This document shows, one piece after another, positions 1,475-54,647 of a DNA stretch of 58,274 nucleotides. The notes beneath the pieces were generated by a model, which worked only from the letters and a program-made list of their open reading frames with translations, did not search any database and was not told the DNA's origin. Position 1 is the first letter of the stretch. Each line of letters begins with the position of its first letter. Both the position numbers and the translations under genes were made by a program. Source of the DNA: a virus; the IMG/VR virus record IMGVR_UViG_3300030294_000040, positions 1-58,274 of that record; one strand, 5' to 3'.

Positions 1475-1508
1475 AAAGAGCCGTCTCATAGTAGGGATGG
1501 CTCTTTTT
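1475..1508 (+). terminator. Intrinsic terminator ending the first early operon
   Basis: AGAGCC (1477-1482) pairs with GGCTCT (1499-1504), and the right arm runs into a T-tract. It separates the first small operon from the structured-RNA region. Confidence 0.7.
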
Positions 1509-1666: not shown

Positions 1667-1689
1667 GGCTTCCTAGGAGGAAATAGCCA

Positions 1690-1965
1690 CATTCAATTAT
1701 TTTTCATATTTTATAAAAAAGGGGATTGACCAGGACAATCAAAGGTGAGCATATGGGGGCTACGAAATGAGGGGTTTCCCCCTCCTCCTCCCGAGAGTAG
1801 ACCTCGGAAGTTTTAGTGGACTACCTGACTGATTACGATCTACTCTCTGGGTCTTGGCTAACGCTAAATAAGGCCACATGGTAGAGCTAGTCATCCGCAA
1901 GGACCATAAAAGGTGTTAGGTGCGAACGTCTGCTAAGAAGGGAAACCGAAGCTTTTTCCTTCAAA
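1690..1965 (+). ncRNA. Structured, gene-free segment upstream of the large RNA
   Basis: No protein frame fits. Strong helices are visible: GAGAGTAGA (1793-1801) pairs perfectly with TCTACTCTC (1839-1847), extended by CCC/GGG. GAAGGGAAA (1937-1945) pairs with TTTTCCTTC (1954-1962) with one G-U. GATTG/CAATC flank a short loop near 1724-1740, and CC-GCAA-GG forms a GNRA hairpin near 1899. It may be a separate RNA or the 5' domain of the next one. No promoter of its own was found. Confidence 0.45.
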
Positions 1966-1983
1966 ACACGAAATATTATTCTG

Positions 1984-2018: not shown

Positions 2019-2690
2019 ATAGTCATAGAGGGGCGGCCTCATGGGAAGCTTCTTGAGACTGGGGCGAAGACAGCGAGTAGACTAGGCTGTTATCTGCCGA
2101 GTGGGTAAAGTAGCAAATGGTTGGTCGGGGGAATGGCTATGGCTTTCCCCAGGAAGACCAGGAAGCGAAATCCCAGCAACAGATTTACAACCAAACTTGA
2201 AACCCTGTCATCAACGGAGGGAAATGGGTCTTTCCCCCTGGAAAGTAGCCTAGCGGAAGACGAAGGGTTATGACTACCACCCTTGCAGCTTAAGCCCTGG
2301 ACATGCTGTACAAAAACCGGGAGGAAGAGACCTTATCTCCAAGCTGGGTTGGAAGCCCGGAAGACGCCAAGAAATTGGCACGTCATGGGATGCTTAGGCT
2401 GTGCGGAACGCATATGCTGTCTTCCTGGCGCAAGGTGACGAGAGAGTATGTATTGCGGTATATCCGCCTTCCCTTTCTTGTCATCTGTCCTCCCTTGGAC
2501 ACCAATCCGTGGATAGCAGCCATAGCCTGCTAAGTGAAACGGATAAGGGTTCGAGGGCGGTGAAAAGGAAATAAAAGCGAAGAGAGATAGAAGCCACGCC
2601 GGCGATGATAAAGCTAATAAGTTTGGCTTCGAAAGTGCTCAAAGGAACTATGTGATTATTACTACCCTGAGTATTTCTCTCTTCACTCTT
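2019..2690 (+). ncRNA. Large structured non-coding RNA, about 670 nt
   Basis: The stretch is more GC-rich than most neighbours and has no credible gene on either strand. Helices seen directly include TGGTC-GGGGGAA (2122-2133) with TTTCCCC (2144-2150) and GACCA (2156-2160). GCCAA-GAAA-TTGGC (2366-2379) is a GNRA hairpin extended by GAC/GTC. TGCG-GAA-CGCA lies at 2402-2412 and GCGG/CCGC at 2455-2467. AAGCTAA pairs with TTGGCTT at 2611-2629. GAAGAGAGA (2579-2587) pairs with TCTCTCTTC (2676-2684), closing the 3' domain. Size, phage location and nearby tRNAs recall the large ornate phage RNAs GOLLD and ROOL. That family assignment is inference. Confidence 0.7.
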
Positions 2691-2710: not shown

Positions 2711-2923
2711 ATGACTGACAATATAGCTGTGCTTGAGGGTTATTCTAAGCAGGTTTGGTGTAACCTTCGGAATGCCCCGGAGGAGGACAACTATAAGTCT
2801 TTTCCTCTTCTTGTCAGGAAAAGTGTGAATGTTTCACAGCCGTTTTGGGCATGGTCACAAGACTATCAAGAAATGTGTTATATAAATCCCACTTTTTATG
2901 TGGTGGAAGACAAAGAATTTTGA
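2711..2923 (+). CDS. Protein of unknown function, 70 aa
   Basis: The start at 2711 was preferred to an upstream in-frame ATG because GGAGG lies at good spacing. The protein is acidic and rich in aromatics (WCNL, FWAWSQDYQEMCY). It directly follows the structured RNA, so it may be co-transcribed with it, and is followed by a terminator hairpin at 2936-2960. No family recognised. Confidence 0.6.
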   Translation: MTDNIAVLEGYSKQVWCNLRNAPEEDNYKSFPLLVRKSVNVSQPFWAWSQDYQEMCYINPTFYVVEDKEF

Positions 2924-3003: not shown

Positions 3004-3696
3004 ATGAAAAATATTGGTGGTATGGAAAAGGTTGTTGCTGCTACGGAAACGGGAAATGCAGCTCAGATTGATTTCCTGGCGAAGATTACGGCAAGGATTG
3101 ACTCCATTGCGGCGTCGGATCGGTTGACGAAGGCCGAGCTTTCGCCCCTTTCCCGTGAAATCCTCGAATACATCGTTCTCAACGCTTCGCCGGATGTGGC
3201 GACGGTCAACCGGCTTCTCTCGGTCCTGTCGGCGGCCAACAAGAAAATGTGCCTCTTGTTCTTCAAAGAGCACATTCCGCACAAGGTGGAAGGTTTCGTT
3301 TTCGGCGGCCGCATGAAGGGCGACAAGCGCCTCGAAGAATACGCCAACAAGGCCAAGGATTTCCTGGCCAATCCCGACAATGATGTCTTCACTTGGTTCA
3401 CGGCCAATGTCAAGATGGAAGTCAAGCCCAAAAGCTTCGAAGAGCGTATCAAGAGCCTTATTCAGAAGGCTCTCGAAGGTGACGACAAGCATCCGGCCAT
3501 CACTCCCGAGGATGTGCTCGCCTCGGTTGTGTCCGGCGGAGTCAGCATCGACACCATGTTCAAGGCCATCGAAAGTCTTGGGAAGACGGCCGCTGCCGAT
3601 GCCACTACCGTTGCTGCTGCCGCCCCGCCGGCCGCGAAGCGTCGCCACCCTGCCGCCAACACCGCCAAGGAACAGGCAGAGGTCAAGGCAGCGTAA
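3004..3696 (+). CDS. GC-rich, probably highly expressed protein of unknown function, 230 aa
   Basis: A GGAGAAATAAA site precedes the start. Codon choice is strikingly GC-rich (GGC, CTC, AAG, GCC) compared with the AT-rich neighbours, which suggests strong selection for expression or recent transfer. The body (residues 20-190) is predicted helical. The last 40 residues are an alanine-, proline- and lysine-rich tail with AAKRRHPAAN, resembling flexible nucleic-acid-binding tails. It is a single-gene unit between terminator hairpins at 2936-2960 and 3721-3748. A weak promoter (TTGATG, 17 bases, TGTTAT) may lie at about 2920-2948. I do not recognise the family. Confidence 0.8.
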   Translation: MKNIGGMEKVVAATETGNAAQIDFLAKITARIDSIAASDRLTKAELSPLSREILEYIVLNASPDVATVNRLLSVLSAANKKMCLLFFKEHIPHKVEGFVFGGRMKGDKRLEEYANKAKDFLANPDNDVFTWFTANVKMEVKPKSFEERIKSLIQKALEGDDKHPAITPEDVLASVVSGGVSIDTMFKAIESLGKTAAADATTVAAAAPPAAKRRHPAANTAKEQAEVKAA

Positions 3697-3720
3697 AGGT
3701 CTAGGCAGTCCTGTAGGGGA

Positions 3721-3748
3721 GGCCGTCCAGCAATGGACGGTCTTCTTT
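3721..3748 (+). terminator. Strong intrinsic terminator
   Basis: CCGTCCA and TGGACGG form a GC-rich stem with a GCAA loop, followed by TCTTCTTTT. It ends the GC-rich gene at 3004-3696. Confidence 0.8.
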
Positions 3749-3773: not shown

Positions 3774-3868
3774 GTTTATTTCAGCAAACTTACATAAGAA
3801 GTTTGTTTTAATAAACTTGGATTTAAAGGCTGTACAGACCAGGAAGCTTTTTTGGTATGACCATACCA
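3774..3868 (+). promoter_or_regulatory. Structured leader: nested hairpin plus palindrome
   Basis: GTTTATT (3774-3780) pairs with AATAAAC (3810-3816) and encloses CAAACTT (3785-3791) paired with AAGTTTG (3799-3805). Downstream, TGGTATG-AC-CATACCA (3853-3868) is a 7-bp hairpin. The 170-base gap between the terminator and the start at 3922 has no gene. A TATAAC box at 3757-3762 could be a -10 element, but its -35 (TGGACG) is poor. The leader may control the operon from 3922. Confidence 0.45.
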
Positions 3869-5064: not shown

Positions 5065-5143
5065 TAGATATTTTGGTATGGTGATACCCGTCACCGCTCT
5101 AATTGGCTTCTTTAGTCTTCCCATCAAGTTTAAGAGGTATATT
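5065..5143 (+). promoter_or_regulatory. Leader with hairpins and a duplicated 29-nt motif
   Basis: GGTAT/ATACC and GGTGA/TCACC form alternative hairpins near 5075-5095. GGCTTCTTTAGTCTTCCCATCAAGTTTAA (about 5105-5133) recurs with three changes at about 7549-7577, in both cases shortly before a ribosome site. A similar TTTTGGTA start is found at 3850 and 5757. It looks like a repeated cis-acting leader element. Confidence 0.45.
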
Positions 5144-5476
5144 ATGGATCTTAGAACATTAATGGCCCTTCAAAAGTCTATCAAGAAATGGGAAAGGTAC
5201 GCCAAGGCTAAAGACTTTGACGAAATTAGTCTTGGTACAGGTACATGTCCTTTGTGCAGATTGTTTCATTCAAATTCACACTTTGTGCATAATAATCAAA
5301 CGGATTTTCAATGTTGTGTTGGTTGTCCCATTTTTGAAAATGATAATTCACATTATCAGTGCCATGGCACGCCATATGAAGCCGCTGAATGGGCGGAGTC
5401 TTATGATATGATCGCCTTTAGAAAATCCGCCAAACAAGAAGCAGAGTTTCTTCAATCTCTTCTCCCAAAAGACTGA
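5144..5476 (+). CDS. Cysteine-rich (zinc-binding-like) protein, 110 aa
   Basis: AGAGGT precedes the start at 5144; an in-frame upstream start at 5078 lies inside the leader motif. The protein carries CPLC near residue 35, then CCVGCPIF and QCHGTPYEAAEWAES. This cysteine pattern with a GTPY segment is familiar from small phage proteins of unknown role. Zinc binding is inferred from the CxxC pairs. It stands alone between a structured leader and a structured non-coding stretch. Confidence 0.65.
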   Translation: MDLRTLMALQKSIKKWERYAKAKDFDEISLGTGTCPLCRLFHSNSHFVHNNQTDFQCCVGCPIFENDNSHYQCHGTPYEAAEWAESYDMIAFRKSAKQEAEFLQSLLPKD

Positions 5477-5489
5477 GAGGGATAACAGA

Positions 5490-5770
5490 TAGTCTCTCAT
5501 TAGGGGCTATCAATTATCCCCCTTATGCGTCCCGACTCGGGGTAGTAAGGTGAGGATTTAAACTGATCAGCTAGGGAGAACATATAGTGCTTCCATTTAC
5601 GTAGTAATATGGTCATGGGATCGAGCCGGTTCCCTTTGAAGGCAATAGGTCGCATTCCCTGATGAGCCTGAGTGCTCGAATGCTTTATAGTGATAGCTTC
5701 TCTAATGAGGAGACTAGCGAATGTATTTTAAACTACATCCTCCGTAGCTTTTTTCATATTTTGGTAAGGT
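5490..5770 (+). ncRNA. Second structured, gene-free segment
   Basis: About 280 bases without a gene, rich in helices. GCATTC (5652-5657) pairs with GAATGC (5678-5683) around GAGC/GCTC (5664-5677). CTTCTC-TAAT-GAGGAG (5697-5712) is a 6-bp hairpin. Near the 3' end, TTTTGGTAAGGTGAAA (about 5757) echoes the leader at 5070. No sigma70 promoter was found. It may be a small structured RNA or a long leader. It does not fit a tRNA. Confidence 0.4.
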
Positions 5771-5811
5771 GAAATTCCTGCCCTTTTATTATAGCGCTTG
5801 TAGGCGAACGT

Positions 5812-5850
5812 AAGGACTAGCTTCTTTCTTATAAGGGGCTAGTCCTTTTC
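5812..5850 (+). terminator. Intrinsic terminator after the structured segment
   Basis: AAGGACTAGC (5812-5821) pairs perfectly with GCTAGTCCTT (5838-5847), followed by TTTC. The 16-base loop is long, but the 10-bp stem and T-tract are convincing. Confidence 0.65.
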
Positions 5851-5866
5851 TTATGGGAGAAGAGCT

Positions 5867-6628: not shown

Positions 6629-7026
6629 TTTCTACTGTCGCGGAATTCATCAAACAGGTAACACCGGGAACAGTGTTCTATACCACATGGACGGAGTGCG
6701 GTAAGCCAGGTGGTGTAGAAGGACCGTATACGATGCGGGAGTACTGCTATCCACCCGTTACCTCTTTTCCGCTAAACCATACGGAAAATTATCCGTGGTG
6801 CGTGGTAGACGAATGCATATATTACCCCGTATCTGTTCATGATATGCTAAATAACAGATCGGAGAGAGTATTTCTTTCGGAAATGGAGGCGGTTAACTTC
6901 TTCAAAAAAGAGCGCGCTGAATATGCTACCGACCCTAGATGGATCGCAAGCTATCTTCTCGAAAAAGAAAGAGCGACCGAAGATCGGGATGTCGGGCACC
7001 CGGAGGGATATTATTATACCGATTAA
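6625..7026 (+). CDS. Protein of unknown function, 133 aa
   Basis: ATGA overlap with the upstream gene; GGGGA lies before the start. It is rich in aromatic residues and prolines (GPYTMREYCYPPVTSFPLN) with several cysteines, and ends in a tyrosine-rich tail (EGYYYTD). Its codon use is somewhat more GC-rich than genes around 8 kb. No family recognised. Confidence 0.65.
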   Translation: MISTVAEFIKQVTPGTVFYTTWTECGKPGGVEGPYTMREYCYPPVTSFPLNHTENYPWCVVDECIYYPVSVHDMLNNRSERVFLSEMEAVNFFKKERAEYATDPRWIASYLLEKERATEDRDVGHPEGYYYTD

Positions 7027-17456: not shown

Positions 17457-18418
17457 TTGGGAACGTGTATTGCTAAGATTGCACATGAGGAATGTGGTTC
17501 TCATGATGCTTTACAAACATTTTTAAATGATGATGGATCTATTTCTGGGTATTGCTTTGCATGTTCAACATATGTGCCACATCCATATGGAGAAAATACA
17601 AAAATCATGGACATACCTCTGCCAAAAAAGAAAACAGAGGAAGAAATTCAACAAGAAATTGCTGAAATTGATGGATATCAAACAGTAGACATCCCACATA
17701 AAAGGTTGAAGGCTTCAAGCCTAGATTATTTCGATGTGAAAGTTGGCTTGTCTGAGGTAGATGGAAAGACCCCTGAGCTTATTTACTATCCATATACAAA
17801 AGGGGGCAAGCTTTCTGGGTATAAGGTGAAGCTTCTTAACCCAAAGAAGTTATGGTCCATTGGCGATTTAAAGGGCGTGGATGCCTTTGGTTGGGAGAAG
17901 GCTATAGCCGTAGGGGCTAAACGTCTTATCGTCACAGAGGGCGAGGATGACACGATTGCGTGGCATCGTATTCTTGAGCTTATGTCAAAAGATGAATTCA
18001 AGGATTTTACGGCTGTTGTTTCGGTTCCACATGGAGCAAGCTCTGCTAGAGAATTCTTTTCGGAACATGGAAAAGATTTGAATGAATATTTTAAAGAGGT
18101 TTATCTTTCCTTTGACATGGACGCAGCAGGGAGAAAAGCTGTTGAAGAGGTTAGCCTAGTTTATCCAAAGGCTAAATCTATTTCTCTTCCCTCAAAAGAT
18201 GCTAATCAATGTATTATTGATGGAAAGATGAAAGCTGCTTTTAACGCATTGTTTAATGCAACAAAGCCAAAAAATAGCAGGCTTATCTTTGGAGAAGATG
18301 TTCATGAAGCTGCTAAGGAGCCTGCCAAGTATGGGGAACTTACCTGGCCCTGGGAGCATATACAAAGAGATACTAGAGGCATCCGATATGGAGAGACTAT
18401 CTATATTGGCGGCGGCGT
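17457..18418 (+). CDS. Primase-helicase, exon 1 (zinc-binding, TOPRIM, start of helicase)
   Basis: The start is TTG with AAAAGGGA upstream. Residues 1-40 hold a zinc-binding module (HEECG then CFAC), as in T7 gp4. The TOPRIM primase domain shows LIVTEGEDD with the catalytic Glu and LSFDMDAAG with the Asp pair. The helicase begins near residue 275 (SRLIFGEDVHEA) and reaches YIGGGV of the Walker A loop, where the intron interrupts. Joined to 19177-19921 the product is 568 aa. It would unwind DNA 5'-3' and make primers for the adjacent PolA-type polymerase. Confidence 0.9.
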
Positions 18419-19176
18419 TAATTTTGGCGCATTTTGTCAGTAATGACAATATAAAACTATGTGAATTCAGGGAATATCTTTAAAAGACAATCCTGAGCTA
18501 AGACTATTAAAGGGAGATTAGGTGTGAAACCAATCAATATTCCTGGCTATGAAATGTATCATGTGTCAGAAGATGGTGTTGTTATTAACACCAGAACAAG
18601 CAGAGTATTAAAAACAGATTTAACAAATAGCGGTTATAAAAGAGTTACTCTAAGTGTTGGAGGAAATGTACTTAGAATAACAGTACATAGATTAGTGGCT
18701 TTATCTTATGTTGAAGGTTTTAAAGAAGGTTTATGTGTTAATCATATAGATGGAAATAAACTAAATAATTTCTATAAAAACCTTGAATGGGTCACTTCTT
18801 CACAAAATAGACTTCATGCTTTTAAACATAAACTCTGCAAAAGGCCCAACAGTAAATTATCTGATAATACTGTTAATGTTGTGTGTACACTAATTTCACA
18901 ACAAGTTCCTTATAAAATAATTAGGGATGTATGTAAAATACCAAAACATATTTATAAAGACATCCATTCTAGAAGATATTATAAGGATATTTCAGATAAT
19001 TATATCTGGTAGTAAAGTGCAACGACTATCTCGTGAGAGAGTAGAAAGCAAGTGGATGGCTTTCGAAGCGCATAGCCCCTTATAATAAGGGTGATGATAT
19101 AGTCTGGTCTATATGGTAACATATAGCAGCTTGTATAAAGCGGGAGCATTCTTACGAAATGCTTTGAACACAAACG
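18419..19176 (+). mobile_element. Group I intron with HNH homing endonuclease
   Basis: The intron splits the Walker A codon string. Splicing 18418 to 19177 restores GGGVKMGKSE in frame (962 + 745 bases = 569 codons). The last exon base is T and the last intron base is G, as group I splicing requires. Core elements are visible: AATCCTGAGCTAAGAC near 18490, and TGCAACGACTA near 19018 with GATATAGTCT near 19097 (P7-like). The endonuclease lies between them. Boundaries come from these rules and are not experimentally shown. Confidence 0.85.
18524..19012 (+). CDS. HNH homing endonuclease inside the intron (GTG start)
   Basis: GGGAG sits six bases before GTG. The 162-aa protein starts with a NUMOD4-like segment (IPGYEMYHVSEDGVV), followed by VHRLVALSYVEG and the HNH core CVNHIDGNKLNN then NLEWVTSSQN. 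The C-terminal third looks like a helix-turn-helix (YKIIRDVCKIPKHIYKDI). It would cut intronless helicase genes at this site to spread the intron. Confidence 0.9.
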   Translation: MKPINIPGYEMYHVSEDGVVINTRTSRVLKTDLTNSGYKRVTLSVGGNVLRITVHRLVALSYVEGFKEGLCVNHIDGNKLNNFYKNLEWVTSSQNRLHAFKHKLCKRPNSKLSDNTVNVVCTLISQQVPYKIIRDVCKIPKHIYKDIHSRRYYKDISDNYIW

Positions 19177-19921
19177 AAAAATGGGAAAGAGTGAGATTGT
19201 TAACACTTTGGCGGCTCATTTTATTAGGAAGCACCAAATCAAAGTGTTCCTTGCAAAGCCCGAGGAGGTTAATAAGAAAACTTATAAGCTTCTCGCAGGT
19301 AAGATTGTAGGAAAGATATTTCATGATCCAGAAGTAGAATTTGATGTAGAGGCTTTTGATAGGGCGGGAGAAATTCTCAAAGACAAGGTCAGTATGATTA
19401 ATCTCTACCAACATCTTGGCTGGAACAGTCTTAAAGAAGATATTCTCTCTTCTATTGCTTGGGGAGCTAAAGCAGTCTTTATTGATCCTATTACTAATTT
19501 AACAAGTGGTATGTCTTCAGCAGATGCTAATACAAAGCTTGAAGAGATTTCTGGGGAGCTATCTGTTATTGCCAAGGATCACAATGTTGTTGTCTTTATC
19601 TTCTGTCACTTAAAGGCCCCAGAGGGCAGCATCTCTAAGGATCAACGTCTCAAGTCCTATCATGATAGCAAATATATTGGTCTTGGAAATTGCCCCCATG
19701 AATTAGGTGGGGATATTTATAGTAATCAGTTTGCAGGTTCACGAACTATGATGCGTACTTGTAATATGATGATTGGTATCGAAGGAAATAAAGATCCTGA
19801 TCTTCCTGTGGAAGTTAGGAATATTCGCAATTTGAAAATTCTTGAAGACAGAGAGTTTGGAGTAAATGGTATCTATCCATTATATTGGAATAACAACACC
19901 TCTCTCTTCAAAGAAATATAA
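19177..19921 (+). CDS. Primase-helicase, exon 2 (RecA-like helicase domain)
   Basis: It begins with the end of Walker A (KMGKSEIVNTLAAHFI). Walker B is AVFIDPITNL, and a following region has VFIFCHLKAPEG and FAGSRTMMRTCNMMIGI, the hexameric T7-type helicase H3/H4 pattern. The C-terminal RNLKILEDREFGVNGIYPLYW is typical of this family. This half has an internal ATG at 19181, but without exon 1 it would lack the P-loop glycines, so independent translation is unlikely to give an active protein. Confidence 0.9.
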
Positions 19922-19932
19922 GGAATTATTTT

Positions 19933-20442
19933 ATGGATGTTAGAAATGATATTATTGGAAAGCATTATAGCTGTAATTTTAATAAGCTTGTTAATCGTTT
20001 GTCTTGGTCATTTGGGGGTAATGTTTCTCTCTCAGAAGAATGTATACAAGAATCCTACACAAGGGCATTAAAGTTCTTCTACAGTTATGATATAGATAGA
20101 GCCCCTTTTCAGACATGGTTTAACTCTATCCTTAGAAATACTATTAAGGATTTCAAGAAGTCTGATAAGTCAAAGATTTCAACTTCGGAAGAAGATGTTT
20201 TAAACTCTATCCCAGATATTAATGGGGGAGAGGAGTTTCAGTTTCGCAGAGAAATTTGTAATAAAGTGGAGAAAGACTTTTCTCTTCTTTCTCCTAAAGC
20301 GAGAACAGCAGTTCATCTGTATTTCTTTAAGAATCTTTTGCCACATGAGATAGAGAAGAATACAAAAGGGCTGTCTAAGTTTTCTGTTAGAAAGTATGTT
20401 CATCAGGCTCAACAGACAATGGAGGCAAGTTATGCTCCCTAA
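19933..20442 (+). CDS. Phage ECF-type sigma factor
   Basis: In the 169-aa protein, region 2 is recognisable at about residues 15-80 (SEECIQESYTRALKFFYSYD, then FQTWFNSILRNTIKDF). Region 4 lies at about 110-165 (LLSPKARTAVHLYF, then HEIEKNTKGLSKFSVRKYVHQAQ). This is the short two-domain layout of ECF sigmas, and phiEco32 carries one used for its middle and late promoters. Here it would redirect host RNA polymerase, probably to the leftward virion genes. It is expressed with replication genes, 11 bases after the helicase. Confidence 0.85.
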   Translation: MDVRNDIIGKHYSCNFNKLVNRLSWSFGGNVSLSEECIQESYTRALKFFYSYDIDRAPFQTWFNSILRNTIKDFKKSDKSKISTSEEDVLNSIPDINGGEEFQFRREICNKVEKDFSLLSPKARTAVHLYFFKNLLPHEIEKNTKGLSKFSVRKYVHQAQQTMEASYAP

Positions 20443-51941: not shown

Positions 51942-54647
51942 TTAATATCCAAATTCACTATCAGAAATAAACCCTGCACTGGACTGTGAGGGATTTCTAT
52001 TATTATATAAGAGCAACATAGAAGGATTATATGGCCTGCTCATACAACCATATCTCAAAGCATCATAAGCATGATCCTCTGCTGTAGTATCCACATCCTC
52101 CATATTATTCTTATCTAATGGAAGAGAGGGAAGTGTCCTAATTAAATTCTTACAAGTAGAAAATATCCTAAGTCTTGGAAAACCTTCCTCATTTAAAGCT
52201 AATCGCCTATGAACTTCAAGTTTACCATGAACACGACTACCAGAAGTCCTGTCAGAAGGTTTCCAACGGCAGCCCATCTTAGTCATAATCTCCGCTATAC
52301 TAGGTCCGGGGTCTCCTCTATTCTGCCACGCTGAAGCATCTAAGACACCATACCTAATGTCTTCTCCTTCTTCTCTATCCAAGACCGTATTAGCAAACTC
52401 ATCAGCAGTTTTCTTAGTTGTATACAGCTCACGATAGACGTAAAGATTATTATCATAATCTCCAGCAAACCATAAACAACAAGCTGGAGCACTATACCCC
52501 CAGTCAGCCGCTCTAAATCTAGTCCAATTATGAGGAATATCAAAAGGTTCTATGACATGTATTCGTCTATCAAACTCAGAGAAAGCTGCACTCTCAACAA
52601 CATCCCAATCTCCATCAAGCCATTGCTTACGTTGGTGCTCAGGAAGGGTTGCCAACATTGTTAGGTAATTATCATCTTTTAAGAGATAAGGATTATCATA
52701 AACTGTGGAAGGAACAAACCTTCTAGTTACTTCAGACTCAATAATACCTGTTGGTGTATGAATTGAAACCTTCTGGGAGAATCTTGTATTAGGCTCTGCT
52801 GGAGAAATAAATAAATCTTTCACCCAACCACTATTACCACTAATCCAAACACACCCATCTTGTCTAATAAAAAATGTTTCTGTGTCTTCAATAGTTAGGC
52901 AATACACTTGGCCAATAAAATTTTGTTTACTAACATTTGTTTTTCTTTTTGTATTGGTGCCAACATCGTATCTATGGTTTCCAGTTAGAAGTTCTGTACC
53001 ACCACTTTTATTTTTTGTAAAAGTAACTTCATAAGAAGGATGACAAAAGCCTAGTTTTCTCCCTTTTATAACTGCGCCTTGTCTTTGTCTTTCCCTATAA
53101 CACACCTTATACCCAAGTTTTATACAAACTTCTATTACGTCATCTCGAAGTTTCTTAGAAGATGTATAATAAGTTCCTGAAATTTCTTCCTTATTCTTAA
53201 GCCAAGTCCCATCCCCCAACATAAGGGCATTAAGTAAAAGTTGTAATTGTTTTTGAGAAGAGTTCTTTAGGTTTTCTGGTATATATTTATTTAAAGATTT
53301 TCCAAACTGCTCAAAGTAGTTTCCCCAACTTTTAGAATAAATTGAAAACCCCCCTTCTGTTGTATAATAAGTAAATCCAACTTTAATTAAAAAGTTTTGT
53401 ATTGCCTCTCTTGACTCTTCCTTTACCTGAGAGATACCAAACCCACCGTCTCTGGTCATATGATGACCTTCTGATAAAAAGAATCCCATTAATACAGCAT
53501 AATCATCCCCCGAAATTGTATAGGGCTGTGATTTTCTACTTTTTCTATAAAGGGTAGTATCAACAGAAAATAAATCTATATCTTTTGCCAACCAATTGGC
53601 AGACCTTAATATTGTAGCTTGCCCACTTAATTCCTTATAAGGCCTTAATTCAAAATTAAGAAACCCTTCTTTCTTACTTCTAATAAGTTCTGGAAACCTA
53701 TGATCTTCTGTGGAAGTAAACCTAAACCTGCTAGTATTACTTTTTACAATATTCCCCGTATATTCTCCTGAATGGGTTTTTAATACCCTCTTCTGGACAA
53801 TATTTTTATTTTTATCAACAGACCAAACAAGTTCCCCTTCTTTAACATCCTTTATATCTTTCCACCCTTCCTCAACAGTCCAAACTTCCCCATAAGGAAC
53901 ACATCCAATATTCCCCGGGTTCCCTGTCGATCTCATATAGATTGGAATTGTTGGATCTGTAGACCTAAGAGAGCCCCTAAGATCATTCCAAATATCCGGA
54001 GTGGGAAACTGTGGTAGTTCATCTACACCAATCCAAGAATAAGCCTGCCCCTGATATCTTAAAGCGTCTGCTCTAGTCTCCGCATAACCAAATTCAATGC
54101 GAGCCCCACTAGGAAAGTTCCAAACCTTATCTTGTTCTTTCCACTTAGCCCCAGGATAAGCTCTAGGATAGAGCATTTGAGATTTAAAAATCAAATCTCT
54201 CAACTCTGGCATGGTCTTACGAATGATAACAGCCCTAGCTTCCCTCTTATCACAATAACGAAGGGGATCAATCAACAGAGCATAAGATTTACCACCGCCT
54301 CTAGCCCCCCCATAGAAAACTTCTCTTTCAGAGGCTGCTAAGAAATCACTTTGTGGACCAGCATTTGCTTGGAAAACAATATTATCTTTAACTTCTTCAA
54401 GTCTAGATATGATAGTAGGAGGCAAATCTTCTTTTACCCCTAAATCAACCATTCCGCTGCCATCTTTAGCTATAATATTGGCAGCATCAGTGGCTTTCTT
54501 CTTTAATTTAGCCTTCTCAAGTCGATTTTCTAGAGATTTTATACTATCTTCAGCAGACTTAGCAGCCCTTGTAGCAGAAATCTTAGCTTTTGCTGCTCCA
54601 ATCTTACCCTTTTTAATCTTCGGTAGGGGGATTTGTACGTCTGCCAT
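51942..54647 (-). CDS. terL: Terminase large subunit with intein
   Basis: The 901-aa precursor holds a 357-aa intein, leaving a 544-aa terminase. Walker A is GGARGGGKS (residues 113-121) and Walker B ends V208-D209-E210. After the intein, the extein continues GWVKDLFISPAEPNTRF, with nuclease-type acidic segments RFRAADWGY and RYGVLDASAW further on. The junction lies in the STGNPGNIG coupling motif. Residues 1-60 are a lysine- and alanine-rich extension. It is the packaging motor, acting with TerS (54893-55258) and the portal. Confidence 0.92.
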   Translation of the reverse strand: MADVQIPLPKIKKGKIGAAKAKISATRAAKSAEDSIKSLENRLEKAKLKKKATDAANIIAKDGSGMVDLGVKEDLPPTIISRLEEVKDNIVFQANAGPQSDFLAASEREVFYGGARGGGKSYALLIDPLRYCDKREARAVIIRKTMPELRDLIFKSQMLYPRAYPGAKWKEQDKVWNFPSGARIEFGYAETRADALRYQGQAYSWIGVDELPQFPTPDIWNDLRGSLRSTDPTIPIYMRSTGNPGNIGCVPYGEVWTVEEGWKDIKDVKEGELVWSVDKNKNIVQKRVLKTHSGEYTGNIVKSNTSRFRFTSTEDHRFPELIRSKKEGFLNFELRPYKELSGQATILRSANWLAKDIDLFSVDTTLYRKSRKSQPYTISGDDYAVLMGFFLSEGHHMTRDGGFGISQVKEESREAIQNFLIKVGFTYYTTEGGFSIYSKSWGNYFEQFGKSLNKYIPENLKNSSQKQLQLLLNALMLGDGTWLKNKEEISGTYYTSSKKLRDDVIEVCIKLGYKVCYRERQRQGAVIKGRKLGFCHPSYEVTFTKNKSGGTELLTGNHRYDVGTNTKRKTNVSKQNFIGQVYCLTIEDTETFFIRQDGCVWISGNSGWVKDLFISPAEPNTRFSQKVSIHTPTGIIESEVTRRFVPSTVYDNPYLLKDDNYLTMLATLPEHQRKQWLDGDWDVVESAAFSEFDRRIHVIEPFDIPHNWTRFRAADWGYSAPACCLWFAGDYDNNLYVYRELYTTKKTADEFANTVLDREEGEDIRYGVLDASAWQNRGDPGPSIAEIMTKMGCRWKPSDRTSGSRVHGKLEVHRRLALNEEGFPRLRIFSTCKNLIRTLPSLPLDKNNMEDVDTTAEDHAYDALRYGCMSRPYNPSMLLLYNNRNPSQSSAGFISDSEFGY
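52833..53903 (-). mobile_element. Intein with LAGLIDADG homing endonuclease (in terL)
   Basis: The intein begins with Cys (TGT at 53903-53901) after GNPGNIG and ends ISGN before a serine. Splicing motifs: CVPYGEVWTVEEGW, the TxxH block TSTEDHRF, and the C-terminal VYCLTIEDTETFFIRQDG. Two LAGLIDADG-type helices, LMGFFLSEG and LNALMLGDG, mark an active-looking endonuclease. The penultimate residue is Gly instead of the usual His, which is tolerated in some inteins. Length is 357 codons. Confidence 0.92.

Follow-up and report, generated by a model that had tools for sequence, protein, structure and literature searches.

Introduction

To our knowledge, few large RNAs are encoded by phages, and those of the GOLLD and ROOL type, which often lie close to tRNA islands, are without an assigned function. 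The packaging RNA of phage phi29 is encoded near the genome end, has its own promoter, and is far smaller than the RNA analyzed here. ROOL is 659 nt long, and ROOL and GOLLD have been studied by cryo-EM (PMC12286853). The put RNA of phage HK022, an untranslated structured leader lying straight after an early promoter, is on its own able to make RNA polymerase resist pausing and termination (PMC9378689). The boxA element binds NusB/NusE and counters Rho (PMC4807359), and leaders of rRNA operons combine boxA with leader-trailer helices (PMC10250234).

Here we compare these systems with a locus near the left end of a single virus record of 58,274 bases, referred to as the window. An earlier note had proposed that positions 2019 to 2690 encode a non-coding RNA, large and structured, which has a promoter to itself and either belongs to the GOLLD/ROOL class or is new. 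As far as sequence can show, the existence of such an RNA, called the window RNA below, is supported.

Results

A Zobellviridae-like phage genome

The rightward half of the window carries early and replication genes, an amidoligase/glutamine-amidotransferase cluster, and a sigma factor gene (19933-20442). Its proteins are ~45 to 54% identical to those of Zobellviridae such as Pseudomonas phages PA11, K4, and GP100 and Salinivibrio phage CW02. For the leftward structural half, judged by its portal protein, the nearest relatives are HMO-2011-type phages of Roseobacter, Puniceispirillum, and Pelagibacter (~53%). The phage is a distant relative of the Zobellviridae. Searches for closer relatives with the portal, the amidoligase, the DNA polymerase, and a 230-aa early protein gave best identities of 47 to 54%, and no relative in the searched collections is near enough to be aligned with the window RNA.

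Several other features of the genome were recorded. The primase/helicase gene (17457-19921) is split by a group I intron, which is accompanied by a NUMOD4/HNH homing endonuclease; the intron match itself (18902-19126) scores 48.9 bits at a permissive setting, just under the Rfam cut-off. The gene for the 901-aa terminase large subunit (51942-54647, minus strand) apparently has an intein inside. A second gene-poor stretch (5457-5864) is bounded by a 16-nt inverted repeat (94%) and contains a strong terminator (5812-5847). The intergenic element TTTTGGTATGGTGATACC, found at 3845-3867, 5066-5088, and 5746-5773, may serve the phage sigma factor as a regulatory site. A 30-nt repeat (90%; 1299-1328 and 1530-1559) suggests that part of gene 1235-1453 was copied into a short open reading frame (1511-1666).

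A promoter followed by a long gene-free stretch

No reading frame within 2019-2690 is coding by codon score, in agreement with the earlier note, and the gene-free stretch is longer than was described, extending from ~1667 to 2710. The open reading frames in 2019-2690 (the longest of 76 aa) score -0.16 to -0.44 bits/codon and all lack a ribosome-binding site, while the gene starting at 2711 scores +0.10 bits/codon. The codon score is a weak discriminator, as the conserved gene at 3004-3696 itself gets -0.07; with that reservation, coding alternatives for this stretch were rejected on their negative scores. On the 5' side, an intrinsic terminator detected by a terminator scan (1475-1506, plus strand; 13-pair stem and T-rich tail) closes the upstream gene cluster. 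The gene-free sequence between this cluster and the promoter (1667-1983, plus strand) contains, on reading, a possible long hairpin (gagagtaga...tctactctc), and its membership in the same RNA as 2019-2695 is not implied.

The sigma70-type promoter that had been reported, TTGACA-N17-TAATAT, is present at 1984-2012 on the plus strand with ideal spacing. In a pattern scan it was the sole exact match to TTGACA-N16-18-TANNNT in the 58-kb window, where 2.6 matches are expected by chance, so that it persuades by its position and not by its rarity. The same arrangement precedes the Pseudomonas phage RNA described below.

No terminator was found by the terminator scan on the plus strand between 2019 and 2711. 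Directly downstream of the RNA, a gene (2711-2923, plus strand) encodes 70 aa of unknown function from an ATG, with the ribosome-binding site GGAGG at ~2698, and is followed on the same strand by the gene for the 230-aa protein (3004-3696), a conserved Zobellviridae early gene that serves as a synteny anchor. The terminator-like element at 3719-3748 (plus strand), GGCCGTCC-AGCAAT-GGACGGTC-TTCTTTT (also GGCCGTCC...GGACGGTCTTCTTTT), was recognized by eye and was not listed by the terminator scan. The simplest unit that we propose from this order would run from the promoter through the RNA and two genes to this terminator.

Two further statements of the note held in part. The stretch is GC-richer (0.51) than its upstream surroundings (0.45 to 0.49), but the downstream gene reaches 0.58. 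Four tRNAs do exist downstream; however, they are spread over 3.2 kb at a distance of 3.4 to 6.7 kb and are not adjacent.

Strand-specific folding and anatomy of the window RNA

On the plus strand, 2013-2710 has a predicted folding energy of -249.6 kcal/mol (z = -3.81), and 0 of 100 dinucleotide shuffles folded as well; for 2019-2690, z was -2.86. Folding of the opposite strand was unremarkable (z = -0.84 for 2019-2690 and -1.41 for 2013-2710). Bases paired at p > 0.9 make up 31% of 2013-2710 compared to 16% in shuffles, 6 of 100 of which reach 31%. Across the early half, 698-nt segments have a mean z of -1.7 (standard deviation, 1.5). Because the window RNA ranks third of 55 such segments and equally strong folding is seen in some coding segments of the genome, folding alone is suggestive; it is supportive and not decisive.

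The predicted structured RNA spans 2019-2695 on the plus strand (z = -2.9 to -3.8, a signal not seen on the minus strand). Its start would lie at ~2018 to 2020, judging from the -10 box, and its 3' end is placed by the closing helix. The note had counted at least six strong helices; the fold contains more than six that are strong and well determined, including the two it had singled out. A 5' hairpin (2020-2061) is formed by 2020-2024/2057-2061 and 2028-2034/2048-2054, mostly at p > 0.9. The hairpin GCCAA-GAAA-TTGGC (2366-2379) is evident in both sequence and fold, and nearly all pairs of a 13-bp helix (2434-2485; 2434-2446/2473-2485) have p > 0.9. The 3' domain (2566-2695), closed by helix 2566-2587/2676-2695, has a z of -3.3 (0 of 200 shuffles as good) and ends a few bases 5' of the ribosome-binding site of gene 2711; all of these elements are on the plus strand. 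Since no terminator precedes this gene and the hairpin touches its ribosome-binding site, the most likely reading is that the RNA forms the 5' leader of an early mRNA with two genes.

The stretch could instead be conventional, a collection of promoters, decayed genes, and processing hairpins whose folding is unremarkable and which as a whole is not a functional RNA. That coding segments reach the same z, that the upstream frame 1511-1666 resembles a duplicated gene fragment, and that homologs of the window RNA were not found are all consistent with this explanation. It is at odds with a z of -3.8 confined to one strand, which none of 100 shuffles equaled, and with the finding that relatives, too, have kept this position free of genes; moreover, it is rare for lytic phages to maintain ~1 kb of DNA that serves no purpose. 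We therefore consider it unlikely.

No match to a catalogued RNA family

Positions 1650-2760 were searched with cmscan against all 4227 families of Rfam 15. There was no match to GOLLD, ROOL, or OLE at E <= 10, and the class membership suggested in the earlier note is not supported. The best match, to an unrelated family, had an E value of 0.49, which is at chance level, and no model of a self-splicing intron or other catalogued ribozyme matched this region. The search works in this setting, because the same library finds the tRNAs and the group I intron elsewhere in the genome. The option of a new RNA stands: the window RNA finds no support as a GOLLD/ROOL relative and, by its sequence, is placed in no catalogued RNA family, and the ~430-nt Pseudomonas RNA likewise falls outside Rfam.

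A divergent member of the GOLLD, ROOL, or OLE families would fit a large structured phage RNA of unknown function that is close to ROOL in length and has tRNAs within 7 kb. In addition to the lack of a covariance model match, however, the nearest tRNA is 3.4 kb downstream, there is no tRNA island, and the window RNA has no terminator of its own and heads a protein-coding unit; membership is extremely improbable. The window RNA shares with the phi29 packaging RNA a phage origin and a promoter of its own near the genome end, but differs from it in size and gave no match to its model.

Collections of phages, plasmids, viral contigs, and bacterial genomes yielded no homolog of the window RNA. The search comprised blastn against phages and plasmids, the whole records of relatives, low-stringency blastn and nhmmer against the corresponding loci of relatives, and two 16-mer scans of IMG/VR, and returned short chance matches only. 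As a consequence, the predicted structure is without covariation support. In the accessible parts of the literature naming Zobellviridae or Paundecimvirus, we found a description neither of such an early RNA nor of boxA in Zobellviridae early leaders.

Gene-free stretches at the same place in Zobellviridae

The product of 3004-3696 is 28 to 40% identical to an early protein of Zobellviridae. At the equivalent place, ~20 Zobellviridae have a long gene-free stretch with sigma70 promoters, and the gene of the 230-aa type, or a small gene just before it, comes directly after this stretch of 0.4 to 1.7 kb. This synteny was seen in Salinivibrio phage CW02 (1.1 kb), in Vibrio, Klebsiella, Erwinia, and oyster-metagenome phages, and in three IMG/VR records. 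Lengths include ~1.7 kb in PQ867840 and PQ867842, 1.5 kb in VPMCC5 and PQ867854, and 0.8 kb in KpnP_VR7901. In Pseudomonas phages K4 (0.64 kb) and GP100 (1.0 kb), the gene-free stretch lies at the left end of the early region, near a gene for a ~180-aa protein that aligns weakly with the 230-aa family; the alignment of the distant family members was too divergent to be used for searching.

The stretches of relatives are rich in promoters of the TTGACA-N17 type. In 12 of 22 loci, their last 140 nt before the first gene fold strongly (z < -3), compared to 12 of 178 segments (6.7%) elsewhere in the same stretches. The Fisher P value of 1.5e-7 for this enrichment of terminal hairpins is optimistic, as the loci are related and not independent, and several of the local folding tests used modest numbers of shuffles. 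In K4 (locus L044), long inverted repeats at 631-657/897-923 (27 nt, 96%) and 935-965/1146-1176 (31 nt, 84%) flank two small genes in a manner resembling rRNA processing stalks.

An rRNA-type boxA, GYTCTTTAACA, is present in the gene-free stretches of 13 of 20 relatives, with 21 sites on the sense strand and none on the other strand (0.03 expected from mononucleotide shuffles), and about half of the sites lie 52 to 81 nt after the -35 box. Carriers include loci L046, L047, L057, L060, L078, L087 to L091, and L093, among others. These sites suggest that in this part of the genome protection from termination matters. The early region of the window has no boxA even when variants are allowed, although a divergent, host-specific boxA would escape the pattern. 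The window RNA and the stretches of relatives have place, promoter, and terminal stem in common, and boxA is missing from the former.

The boxA sites of relatives, the inverted repeats flanking small genes in K4, and the terminal stem of the window RNA, which resembles a processing stalk, all recall rRNA operon leaders, but the window lacks boxA and its RNA is unrelated to rRNA.

The boxA sites bear on the main rival to a released RNA, a leader that acts only in cis on its own transcript, through termination resistance or through mRNA stability or translation of the first gene, and never becomes a free RNA. Such a leader would directly precede a gene and its ribosome-binding site with no terminator between, as is the case here; boxA occurs in 13 of the 20 related stretches on the sense strand only, and HK022 put is a phage early leader that works in this way alone (PMC9378689). 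The window RNA, at 670 nt, is far longer than put, whose activity has been shown; its architecture is different, any such activity of its own is hypothetical, and a terminator 1.7 kb downstream would already close its proposed unit, leaving little to antiterminate. The lack of boxA in the early region of the window and the occurrence of the Pseudomonas version, the ~430-nt RNA, outside a phage operon also speak against this explanation. Taken by itself it is somewhat doubtful, and it is nearly as likely as a released RNA.

A covarying ~430-nt RNA in Pseudomonas phages

The gene-free stretches of Paundecimvirus phages, GP100, and five IMG/VR contigs contain a ~430-nt RNA (L044:1303-1776, L099:1648-2083, and L084:1133-1569, and on the contigs L155:5156-4759, L118:3018-2580, L129:3201-2768, L225:3145-3570, and L123:5424-5837); L113, from position 7004, probably has it too. 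K4, PA11, and GP100 are among the carriers. In most of the nine Pseudomonas-type members the promoter ends ~10 nt before the 5' end of the RNA, which bears GGCAAACGGGCC, a motif whose invariance follows from the way the search was built. In several members, a long 3' hairpin adjoins the ribosome-binding site of a gene for a small lysine/arginine-rich protein. RNAalifold found two-sided compensatory changes in 9 of 15 pairs with 9 sequences and in 13 of 22 pairs with 11 sequences, and the covariation of this RNA is clear. It has no match in Rfam. At the 3' end of the RNAs of L118, L225, and L155, a GTAAACC-GAAA-GGTTTAC hairpin overlaps the long terminal hairpin, so that the two would be mutually exclusive; ahead of the ribosome-binding site, they may thus form a structural switch.

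The plain pattern AGGCAAACGGGCCT gave mostly chance matches, and only those with further similarity were kept. Matches of ~16 to 22 bits to the covariance model of this RNA (R1) in loci fetched with AGGCAAACGGGCCT were inflated by selection and were not counted. One of these, in Marinobacter (L260), was inspected by eye and has neither the promoter nor the other motifs.

The window RNA was rejected as an R1 member. In the window the model gives noise, its highest score, 8.6 bits, falling at 5.8 kb on the other strand; with filters off, the score inside the window RNA region is 2.4 bits, and the GGCAAACGGGCC core is absent. The setting is nevertheless like that of R1, with a TTGACA-N17 promoter just upstream of an RNA of several hundred nucleotides at the left end of the early region and a terminal hairpin abutting the next ribosome-binding site. 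This agreement in place, promoter spacing, and hairpin would be expected if the window RNA were a diverged R1 relative that lost similarity and kept function, an explanation that is compatible with the one we prefer. In contrast, R1 covaries across 11 sequences, precedes the lysine/arginine-rich protein, as the window RNA does not, and has no detectable sequence or model similarity to it; given the 2.4 bits and the missing core, such kinship appears improbable.

The ~430-nt RNA in integrative elements

A scan of bacterial genomes detected the ~430-nt RNA in Pseudomonas cichorii (L277:1057-1181, 64 bits) and P. fluorescens (L281:5403-5279, 49 bits), where the copies extend over L277:1057-1300 and L281:5403-5040. 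TTGAC-N17/18 promoters lie ahead of both, and the gene context is unlike that in phages. The neighbors are tyrosine integrases, phrog_2467 (a phage-type protein of unknown function), and a 115- to 116-aa protein related to the product of a Zobellviridae gene beside the large terminase, which may be the small terminase; L277 also has a replication-initiator-like gene. By this resemblance, the elements may be phage satellites. The presence of the same RNA with its own promoter in integrative elements shows that an RNA of this kind can exist as an independent gene. A packaging role for the window RNA is speculation drawn from these two elements.

Discussion

Our preferred explanation, held tentatively and at a little under an even chance, is an early unit in which a promoter drives a ~670-nt RNA together with two genes and the RNA is freed by cleavage to act as a non-coding RNA. 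It builds on computed features, namely, the promoter sequence, the absence of a coding signal or an intervening terminator, strand-specific folding, the position of the terminal stem, and synteny. Early in infection, host sigma70 RNA polymerase would start at the 1984-2012 promoter and produce a transcript of the untranslated structured RNA followed by genes 2711-2923 and 3004-3696, ending near 3748. The RNA would fold during synthesis, and its terminal stem (2566-2587/2676-2695) would probably be cut by RNase III, a step proposed for 2566-2695 by analogy. Cleavage would set free a stable, compact RNA, and the mRNA would be left with a clean 5' end directly ahead of the first gene's ribosome-binding site; the freed RNA would go on to work as an early-region non-coding RNA. 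Transcription, cleavage, stability, and action in trans are what we infer for this locus. We propose that the window RNA is one of several syntenic, sequence-divergent early RNAs in Zobellviridae-like phages.

A broader and less probable extension is that Zobellviridae-like phages make stable early RNAs in an rRNA-operon-like manner, from several unrelated families acting in trans, with the window RNA as the first of another family. If true, the rRNA-operon-like features would be the sigma70 promoter, boxA, and processing stems. The Pseudomonas RNA is shared with elements that carry a homolog of the terminase neighbor, as satellites do, and so hints at a role in packaging or in a contest between helper and satellite. 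Its presence in such elements suggests that what it does is worth stealing. A phage family that retains a structured RNA where its early genes begin, with the cultured Pseudomonas phages PA11, K4, and O4 among its members, would offer a genetically tractable system for studying the role of such RNAs.
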